Positions 1-10,262 of a stretch of 36,346 nucleotides of DNA are shown here, piece after piece (within the stretch, counting starts at the first letter, position 1; the number at the start of each line of letters is the position of its first letter). The notes below the pieces were generated by a model. It ran no database searches, was not told where the DNA came from, and saw only the letters and a program-made list of their open reading frames with translations. Origin of the DNA: Candidatus Gastranaerophilales bacterium (lineage in GTDB: Bacteria; Cyanobacteriota; Vampirovibrionia; Gastranaerophilales; Gastranaerophilaceae); the NCBI GenBank assembly GCA_944325815.1, contig CALVBV010000008.1:1-36346 (forward strand), read 5' to 3'. The translations under genes and the position numbers were made by a program.

Positions 1-1671
1 CTAATGGAAATGATGGTAGTACTGTTAATTATGTCAATAATCGCAGCTGCCACAGCACCAATTGTGAGCAAAAAAATGATGCAAAGCTCAAAAAGCAATG
101 CAAGCCCCTGGGTATTCACAGGCCAGGGAAAGAATATAGCGTATAATATGGGCGGACTGGATAACGCGACCGCAATAATCGGTGCGGCTAAAGTTCCGGC
201 CGGGACAAAAACAAGGTTATATATAGACTGCGGAAACAATGCATCCCAAATAGCTCTCGGAAGCGGTGACACTGCGGCTAATATCTTGGCCGACCCTGTC
301 GGTAAAAGGGTTGGTATATTTTCTGCCGGCTCTAATGTTAATGTACCGAATAATTCTATAGCAATTGGAATGGATCAGGCCCTTGGCGGTTCCGGTATTG
401 TTGCTGTGGGAACAGGGGCACAAACAAGCAGTGATAAAGCAACTGCAGTAGGATACTCTGCAAAAACTTCTCAAGCTTCTGCAATATCTGTAGGTGACTC
501 ATCCAATGCTTCAGGAAAACAATCGATTGCAATAGGTGCAAACAGCGATGCAAACGGTGTTAATTCAATAGCTCTTGGGGCGAATGCCTACACAAGTACA
601 ACCGGTGCCGTAGCAATAGGCGGCTCAGATGGCAGTCAGTATAGAGCGGAGGCCGGCCATTACGGAACTGCAGTAGGGTATTATGCCAGAGCAACCGGCG
701 GTTCTTGTATGACAGCAATAGGAAACAATGCAATGGCATCGGCTAATTATGCTGCAGCTGTCGGCTGGAAGGCTAATGCAAGCAAGGATTCATCTGTTGC
801 AATAGGGAACTCTCCAAAAGCGGCAGGCAGTTTGTCTATCGCAATAGGGAATAATGCGAGCGCCTCTGCATTTAATTCAATAGCTATCGGTTCCGGTTCT
901 AATTTGGATTACCCGCAGGCAACCCAGAGAGGTTCTGTCGCAATTGGTTACAATGCGAAGGCTACACATTCTCAATCCTATGCTATCGGTAATAGCGCAA
1001 AAACTACAGCTACCAATCAAATTGTTCTAGGGAATAAAGATTACACAGTCTACATCCCGGGCAGACTTGTTGTAGGGAAAAGTGTTTATGTAGGAGCCGA
1101 TTCTGATGATGGTGCTCCGGATACAGGGTCCCCTTTATTTGTGAGATTTAATCTGAATACAGGTTCTGTTGTGGGACGTATACATGAAAAACGCGGCTCA
1201 AGTGCAAGTATTCATTATGAAGGGAATTATATTTATAATATAAACCGTTCCGATAAGCGCTTAAAAAACATTGGCAATAAATACACGGCAGGTATAAATG
1301 AACTTAAGAAATTAGAGTTTTTCCACTATACTTTTAAAAAGGATGAAGCTAAGACTCCTCATGTTGGCGTAATAGCTCAGGATTTGCAAAAAGTATTTCC
1401 TGACGCCGTAACAAAAGGCGAGGACGGATATTTAAGAATCCGGTTTGAAGATATGTTCTACGCAGTTATTAATGCAGTAAAAGAACTGGATAATAAAATT
1501 TCTGAAATTGCTTCTCAAGTCAAGAGCTCGGCAGAAGAAATTAAAAATCTAAAGATAAAAAACGATGAACAGGATAAAATTATTGAAGAGCTTCAAAAGA
1601 CAGTAAACGAGCTGAAATTACAAAATGAAGAACAAAAGAAAATTATTGAAAAATTAGAAAAACAGATTTAG
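1..1671 (+). CDS. Prepilin-like surface protein with YadA-type head and S74 chaperone domain (5' partial)
   Basis: The window opens inside this gene. The first codons read L-M-E-M-M-V-V-L-L-I-M-S-I-I-A-A, which is residues 3 onward of a mature type IV prepilin (the expected GFTLxE places Glu at position 5), so the ATG at base 4 is internal and the true start lies a few codons upstream. Counting from that ATG, residues about 115-345 carry repeated S-x-A-I-G-x-x-A motifs of the YadA/Hia left-handed beta-roll head, which forms trimers in known adhesins. Residues about 416-500 match the peptidase S74 intramolecular chaperone, with the self-cleavage motif S416-D-K-R-L-K and a following HVGVIAQDLQKVFPDAV block. 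Residues about 485-555 are a heptad-rich coiled coil. No YadA beta-barrel anchor is present. I infer a pilus-tip or surface adhesin; function is unproven. A terminator follows directly. Confidence 0.85.
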   Translation, partial: LMEMMVVLLIMSIIAAATAPIVSKKMMQSSKSNASPWVFTGQGKNIAYNMGGLDNATAIIGAAKVPAGTKTRLYIDCGNNASQIALGSGDTAANILADPVGKRVGIFSAGSNVNVPNNSIAIGMDQALGGSGIVAVGTGAQTSSDKATAVGYSAKTSQASAISVGDSSNASGKQSIAIGANSDANGVNSIALGANAYTSTTGAVAIGGSDGSQYRAEAGHYGTAVGYYARATGGSCMTAIGNNAMASANYAAAVGWKANASKDSSVAIGNSPKAAGSLSIAIGNNASASAFNSIAIGSGSNLDYPQATQRGSVAIGYNAKATHSQSYAIGNSAKTTATNQIVLGNKDYTVYIPGRLVVGKSVYVGADSDDGAPDTGSPLFVRFNLNTGSVVGRIHEKRGSSASIHYEGNYIYNINRSDKRLKNIGNKYTAGINELKKLEFFHYTFKKDEAKTPHVGVIAQDLQKVFPDAVTKGEDGYLRIRFEDMFYAVINAVKELDNKISEIASQVKSSAEEIKNLKIKNDEQDKIIEELQKTVNELKLQNEEQKKIIEKLEKQI

Positions 1672-9840: not shown

Positions 9841-10165
9841 GCCCATTCCCTAAATGGGTGATAGTGGCGTGAAGGGTGAGGCGTGAAGGGTGCGTTTATG
9901 AAGTGACCAAGTGACCTGGTGACTAAGTGATCAAGCGGTAGGGTAGACTTTAGTCTACCGCATCATTAGGTGAAGCGTGAAGCGTGAGGAGTGAAGGGTG
10001 CGTTTATGAAGTGATTAAGTGACTAGGTGACTAAGTGATTATACTCCCTTCCCTAAATGAGGGAAGGGCCGGGGATGGGTGATAATGGCGTGAAGCGTGA
10101 GGCGTGAAGAGTGAAGGGTTCGTTTTTGAAGTGATTAATGACTAGGTGACTAAGTGATTAAGAAA
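9841..10165. repeat. Three-copy composite tandem repeat (7-mer array + 8-mer array)
   Basis: Each copy has the same parts: two to four tandem 7-mers of the form GTGARGS; a linker CGTTTATG (CGTTTTTG in copy 3); and about four tandem 8-mers of the form RRGTGAYY. Copy 1 spans 9869-9935, copy 2 spans 9970-10040 and copy 3 spans 10090-10162. One 8-mer of copy 3 has lost a base. A small hairpin precedes copies 1 and 3: CCCATT/AATGGG (9842-9858) and CCCTTCCCT/AGGGAAGGG (10046-10068). No open reading frame covers the array and the units are too short for CRISPR. Function is unknown. Confidence 0.85.
9942..9959. repeat. GGTAGACT hairpin, copy 1
   Basis: GGTAGACT, a TT loop and AGTCTACC form a perfect 8-bp stem between repeat copies 1 and 2. 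The same motif recurs at 10263-10286. Confidence 0.8.
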
Positions 10166-10262
10166 TATATAACTACTCTTCAACTATTCCACCTTTCTAC
10201 TCTTCAACATTTTTAACTTCTTCTCAACTCCTAAACTTCTCAACTTCTAAACCTTTCTGTAA

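Follow-up and report, generated by a model that had tools for sequence, protein, structure and literature searches.

The gene that opens the window, by which we mean the whole 36,346-nucleotide stretch of a Candidatus Gastranaerophilales genome analysed here, encodes a prepilin-type helix, a YadA-type head and an S74 chaperone domain. It is one member of a family of prepilin-head-S74 proteins that is distributed across the order Gastranaerophilales. We consider it reasonably likely that the product acts as a modular minor pilin carrying a trimeric adhesive head for display on a type IV pilus, the head being folded by the S74 domain, which is then cut free. This reading is based on the sequence architecture and its conservation, on the predicted folds of the head and of the S74 domain and on the pilus machinery genes present in the genome. 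A preliminary description of the DNA had already proposed the three-part architecture, and profiles, AF2 folds and a complete paralogue confirm it. Its interpretation is borne out in part: the architecture, its conservation, the pilus machine in the genome and the invariant Ser-Lys pair agree with it, whereas its background statements on S74 proteins and on trimers have to be revised.

The gene occupies positions 1-1671 of the forward strand and is truncated at its 5' end, as judged from the open reading frame, the contig start and the complete paralogue L002. The reading frame is open from the first base, without a start codon of its own, and gives 556 visible residues beginning with L-M-E-M-M-V-V; residues are numbered here from the first visible codon. 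Contig C8 begins with the first base of the window, and the leader and the prepilin cleavage site fall outside this sequence. The contig edge lies directly after the G-F-S of the prepilin site, and about eight N-terminal residues would be missing from the gene if its leader is as in L002. The source genome comprises 1.84 Mb in 110 contigs, and contig C8 breaks within sequence that is common to the paralogues. On the 3' side a terminator-like hairpin with a T-run is found at positions 1695-1726 of the forward strand (3 such hairpins were found vs 0.2 expected in shuffles), and a pyrH-like gene begins downstream of it at about position 1780.

The prepilin-type hydrophobic helix is encoded by positions 1-93 of the forward strand (visible residues 1-31, mature residues 3-33), where AF2 predicts a helix over residues 2-31 and a profile matches PilA and geopilin. 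The conserved prepilin residues E5 and P22 are encoded at nucleotides 7-9 and 58-60, respectively. We looked for the cleavage site in relatives, the preliminary description having expected a prepilin site upstream of the visible sequence. Paralogue L002, located on contig C89 and 61% identical to the window gene, starts with VREKNG/FSLMEMM (the slash marks the cleavage site) and its prepilin region reads VREKNGFSLMEMM, also given as VREKNGFSLMEMMVV. Aligned as DNA, the two genes are 92% identical over 377 bp from window base 1 onward and 87% identical over 248 bp in the S74 part, and the head gives no match in this alignment. The TIGR02532 model scores 30 bits on L002, over its cut-off of 16.3, vs 11.3 on the window gene, from which the leader is absent. 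The prepilin site missing from the window gene is thus a predicted one, supplied by homology with L002. Positions 94-345 of the forward strand encode a conserved linker or N-domain (SPWVFTGQGKNIAYN...RLYID...), which according to AF2 and the profile is partly disordered with three strands at residues 84-108; the AF2 model is of low confidence at residues 18-61. A profile of the N-terminal 125 residues matches solved pilins (PilA and geopilin domain 1) essentially over the helix only, at residues 3-38, and this comparison with solved pilins did not reveal a canonical globular pilin domain behind the helix, in a region modelled with low confidence. Because the pilin match is limited to the helix and the region behind it is poorly modelled, filament packing is uncertain.

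Positions 346-1032 of the forward strand (residues 116-344) encode the YadA-type head, a beta-roll built of repeats of about 14 residues that was identified with PF05658, AF2 and Foldseek. The PF05658 (YadA_head) profile reaches 78 bits on the window ORF against a cut-off of 25 (6e-22) in seven stretches, and the AF2 model, a monomer like our other AF2 models, is a beta-roll with one strand per 14 residues and a pLDDT of 91-98 across most of its length. The closest solved structures found by Foldseek are YadA-family heads, those of BpaC, CbpF, YadA and BoaA (7o23, 1p9h, 3s6l). The preliminary description had noted that an outer-membrane barrel is missing, and indeed the YadA_anchor profile PF03895 is absent from the window ORF and from all 98 sampled genomes of the order. 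Since there is no C-terminal YadA_anchor barrel, we do not class the protein as a trimeric autotransporter. The head is followed by a beta-rich connector (TVYIPGRLVVG...; positions 1033-1248 of the forward strand) with AF2 strands at residues 379-385 and 388-395, which runs to the predicted self-cleavage site and whose YIPG is conserved in the family alignment A1.

The self-cleavage motif SDKRLK lies at positions 1249-1266 of the forward strand, with Ser417 (codon TCC, nucleotides 1249-1251) and Lys422 as the predicted Ser-Lys dyad. The motif is intact, as had been stated, but its serine is residue 417 and not 416. All 88 aligned S74 domains have the S, D, R and K of the motif, and the MyRF residues equivalent to the dyad, S587 and K592, are both required for self-cleavage (PMC8326128). 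With this invariant Ser-Lys pair, self-cleavage of the window protein is predicted to be likely. The S74 or intramolecular chaperone domain extends over positions 1249-1452 of the forward strand, with the Pfam match at 1249-1413 (PF13884, Peptidase_S74; 51 bits on the window ORF vs a cut-off of 22, 2e-13). An AF2 model of the C-terminal 171 residues, made with 88 relatives, has a pLDDT of 89 and finds the MyRF ICA structure 7dc3 as its top PDB match (E 6e-5); among solved chains the S74 profile matches MyRF (7e-14) and phage tail fibres. Structure prediction, which would have counted against the first reading had it shown no beta-roll or S74 fold, returns both for the single chain, a beta-roll matching YadA-type heads and an S74 fold matching the MyRF ICA. 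A C-terminal coiled coil (residues 482-556; positions 1444-1668 of the forward strand; AF2 helix 482-555) forms part of the predicted released chaperone and has L, I, V, M or F at 76% of its a/d positions vs 12% elsewhere. In MyRF the coiled coil that follows the S74/ICA domain drives trimerisation (PMC8326128). By analogy the coiled coil of the window protein probably belongs to the chaperone, and for this reason it would be lost at cleavage and not retained as a stalk.

A scan of bacterial genomes led to the identification of 71 loci, nearly all of them in Gastranaerophilales. The complete members collected number 52, a set chosen partly by the prepilin motif, in which leaders are 3-12 residues long and net positive in 51 cases, and in which Pro22, a residue outside the selection criteria, is present in all 52. 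The loci retrieved by S74 alone form a less biased set, and here a prepilin site was found in 32 out of 32 complete N-termini and Pro22 in 31 of them. The architecture recurs across the order. S74 is present in 99 of the 192 sampled genomes of the order and in 21 of 45 genera, and its absence from about half of the sampled genomes indicates that S74 genes are dispensable for the pilus itself. In the wider phylum outside the order S74 is sparse, and the single S74 protein from there that we read (n=1) has no prepilin motif in the part read, which lies behind its start. The number of S74 copies per genome ranges from 1 to 12, several lineages holding exactly three. In the source genome the other copies are fragments at the starts of contigs C9, C55 and C56 and a short remnant on C33, a count that is a lower bound given the fragmented assembly. 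Decayed copies are found alongside intact ones: L070 (4937-6535) is interrupted by a frame break that separates anchor from head, and the remnant G000:C33:15895-16233 is a C-terminal piece without the cleavage motif. In other phyla, represented by a Chlamydiia locus (L104) and two Rheinheimera loci (L106 and L107), the match is limited to the helix GFSLMEMMVV, in small pilin-like frames of 146-179 aa.

Comparison of the family members revealed constant anchors and variable heads. For the N-domain, the head and S74, mean identity is 85%, 48% and 82% among paralogue pairs within a genome (n=24) and 49%, 40% and 71% among pairs between genomes (n=679). The conserved 5' DNA block includes some upstream sequence and about 350-450 bp of coding sequence, and the heads between this block and the conserved S74 block are mostly unalignable. 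Trees of the N-domain and of S74 both group the copies by genome, and the sequences fit lineage-specific amplification with fast head change. The higher N-domain identity within genomes makes gene conversion of the anchor possible; we did not retain this explanation because a recent duplication of the genes, combined with rapid change of the heads, explains the values equally well and the trees group by genome. Fast-changing heads on constant anchors suggest that the ligand or the exposed surface has diversified.

The source genome encodes one prepilin peptidase of the PilD type and one secretin, with PilB/GspE and GspF/PilC genes in a row after the secretin gene, as well as two PilT/PilU-family proteins over the cut-off. 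In the loci examined, the prepilin-S74 genes do not lie beside pilus machinery genes, which counts against the modular minor pilin. A termite-gut relative has been reported with pilA, pilB, pilC, pilT and pilD (PMC5877343). For the window protein we infer trimerisation, cleavage, pilus assembly and display, and adhesion. The prepilin peptidase would cut the short leader before Phe1, and every chain would be held in the inner membrane by its helix, the remainder lying in the periplasm. The C-terminal coiled coil and the S74 domain would then gather three chains and template the folding of the connector and of the YadA-type beta-roll. Once a correct trimer has formed, the Ser417-Lys422 dyad would cut between residues 416 and 417 and free a chaperone piece of 140 residues; as the membrane helix precedes the cut, the head would stay attached. 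The mature trimer, made of three pilin helices, three flexible linkers and one head, would be incorporated into the type IV pilus, with the tip as the most likely position, and be pushed by the pilus through the secretin to the surface, where it would act as a ligand-binding adhesin. The 98 sampled genomes of the order have no YadA anchor, by which the head could otherwise be exported.

Another way to read the architecture is that the helix, cut or uncut, is an anchor only and that S74 matures the head of an inner-membrane anchored periplasmic trimer which takes no part in a pilus, the head staying in the periplasm or spanning it. The restriction of the recognisable pilin part to the helix and the long linker modelled as disordered would suit such a protein. 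We nevertheless regard it as rather unlikely, because E5 and P22, residues of filament packing rather than of anchoring, are conserved, Pro22 in 31 of 32 members even of the set retrieved by S74 alone, which was unselected for it, because YadA-type heads are otherwise surface adhesins and because a secretin and pilus motors are encoded in the genome. Capture of a phage-derived or prophage tail-fibre gene beside a pilin fragment would account for the weak similarity to phage tail fibres, which lies mainly in the S74 part. It is hardly credible, given that phage matches span at most 33% of the query among the matches listed, that a scan of viral contigs returned one weak match, to the head only, that the neighbouring genes, among them pyrH, metK and valS, have housekeeping functions and that the full architecture recurs throughout the order; a phage origin was therefore rejected. 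We also find it very improbable that S74 is a protease displayed on a pilus and directed against external targets, the role put forward for this pairing in PMC8179133. The domain is named a peptidase and its pairing with a prepilin is listed there among common modular pilins, but the characterised S74 domains of MyRF, endosialidase and MAT fibres are self-cutting intramolecular chaperones, and the domain here follows a trimeric fibre head and comes with a coiled coil, as it does in those proteins.

A further alternative bears on the composition of the trimer. Genera g28 (6/6), g36 (8/9) and g19 (5/6) have a single S74 gene, and because they nearly always hold one copy a homotrimer must suffice in them. 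In contrast, exactly three S74 matches were found in 16 of the 19 S74-positive genomes of genus g23, families f6 and f7 have three S74 genes, except for one f6 genome of 66% completeness with two, and UBA1186 has three in tandem. The g23 triad consists of a tandem pair and a third gene on the opposite strand across metK, and its metK- and valS-like neighbours are kept across species (L172, L173, L176, L184). In f7 and in the f6 loci L140 and L179, the genes form tight, partly overlapping operons of four prepilin genes, three with S74 and one without, an arrangement that also speaks for the modular minor pilin. Downstream of the f6 operons lies a gene of about 165 aa (L140 12327-12824, L179 4205-4708), whose product by eye is possibly a winged-helix (PadR-like) regulator and thus a candidate regulator of the operon. 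In triad lineages three different prepilin-S74 chains, with the fourth prepilin in f6/f7, might co-fold into a mixed trimer that forms a GspIJK-like tip, single-copy lineages being homotrimeric. The chains of each triad are distinct and divergent, their genes are tightly packed with a fourth prepilin in f6/f7, and the S74 tree places each triad within its own lineage, although this tree is built on few columns and leaves 25 of its 49 inner branches unresolved. On the other hand, single-copy genera show that homotrimers must work, the third g23 gene is split off, head lengths differ and, to our knowledge, the S74 trimers known so far are homotrimers. We judge mixed trimers unlikely on balance. 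In a stronger version the triads, with the fourth prepilin of f6/f7, would make a self-trimming fibre that is an obligate heterotrimer and both primes and caps the type IV pilus, a GspIJK-like tip made of phage-type chaperoned fibres with a constant anchor and chaperone and diversifying heads; this appears to us quite unlikely.

The modular minor pilin that we favour has precedents, and no description of a prepilin-YadA-S74 protein was found in the literature searched, where the prepilin-S74 pairing surfaced in PMC8179133. That 2021 study lists the pairing (IPR012902-IPR030392) as one of the 15 commonest architectures of modular pilins and interprets it as a peptidase (PMC8179133). Like the modular pilins PilB and PilC of Streptococcus sanguinis described there, the window protein has a prepilin N-terminus to which a large foreign module for display is joined. 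It differs from them in that its pilin part is the helix only and its module consists of a YadA head and a chaperone; the text of PMC8179133 takes S74 as a peptidase and contains neither YadA heads nor a chaperone function. How pilins, which assemble as single subunits, could handle a trimer had been called an open question, yet minor pilins that form homotrimers are known: CofB and TcpB of type IVb pili have been modelled as such trimers at the tip of the pilus (PMC7248040, PMC9565799). They too are large minor pilins with E5, a residue that matters for filament packing rather than anchoring (PMC10191384), and homotrimers have been seen for them whereas ours is predicted from sequence. Unlike the window protein, they retain the pilin globular domain and trimerise through their own beta-domains, and an S74 domain or self-cleavage is undescribed for them.

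The preliminary description also took S74 proteins to be mostly phage fibres, but they are not confined to these: MYRF is eukaryotic and the mosaic adhesive trimeric (MAT) fibres of Bdellovibrio are cellular surface fibres (PMC10769870). Many of these trimeric fibres end in a working S74 domain with an SDxxxK motif, and they are multi-copy with varied adhesive tips, comparable to the multi-copy proteins with varied heads studied here; the fibre Bd3182 cleaves itself at S782, and S782A blocks cleavage (PMC10769870). The MAT fibres are set apart, by their description, by a signal peptide and a beta domain of about 130 residues at the start in place of the prepilin helix. With the S74/ICA domains of MyRF and of phage endosialidases and tail fibres, the window protein shares the Ser-Lys dyad motif, the fold, matched to 7dc3, and the coiled coil behind the domain. 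In MyRF a membrane helix follows the cut, so that cleavage frees MyRF, whereas here the helix precedes it, and cleavage is expected to remove the chaperone and leave the head attached, as in phage fibres and Bdellovibrio MATs. YadA-type trimeric autotransporter adhesins share the beta-roll head and its repeats of about 14 residues by profile and fold; they differ in having the outer-membrane anchor, and the pilin helix of our protein sits at the opposite, N-terminal end. In all, the prepilin-S74 pairing (PMC8179133) and trimeric minor pilins such as CofB and TcpB were already known, and this analysis adds the trimeric YadA-type head, the interpretation of S74 as an intramolecular chaperone, the distribution throughout the order, the contrast of constant anchors with variable heads, and the triads. 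If our reading is true, it joins pilin-built pilus tips with the self-maturing trimeric fibres of phages and Bdellovibrio, display strategies thought to be separate, and gives the unexplained prepilin-S74 pairing a concrete role as a folding chaperone and not a peptidase. It also suggests how uncultured gut relatives of cyanobacteria may stick to hosts or neighbours through heads that vary between paralogues, and predicts that the head is surface-exposed only with the pilus machine and in the form without the S74 piece.

The source genome contains a second multi-copy prepilin family (GFTLAELLIVLGI.., frames of 474-590 aa; L112, L115, L116, L117 and L118 on contigs C103, C44, C91, C30 and C37). 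Its N-terminal 230 or so residues are conserved, its C-terminal parts differ and it has no S74, and from these sequences it appears to be another constant-anchor, variable-module pilin family. The same sequence of about 130 bp lies upstream of L002 and of this second family. We considered a common pilin promoter and rejected it because the sequence is a genome-wide repeat, copies of which also precede rpsU/dnaA-like genes and adjoin an flhA-like gene. This interspersed repeat (L195-L213; for example G000:C89:7042-7173) has eight copies of 80 bp or more that are 94-100% alike and lie mostly at contig ends; six of the eight long copies precede prepilin genes, the others being near the rpsU/dnaA-like and flhA-like genes. 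Short related repeats (gtgaagggtgaggcgtgaag.., gtgactaagtgatt..) that resemble the sequence upstream of the L002 prepilin gene were also found in the intergenic region at positions 9866-10260 of the window.
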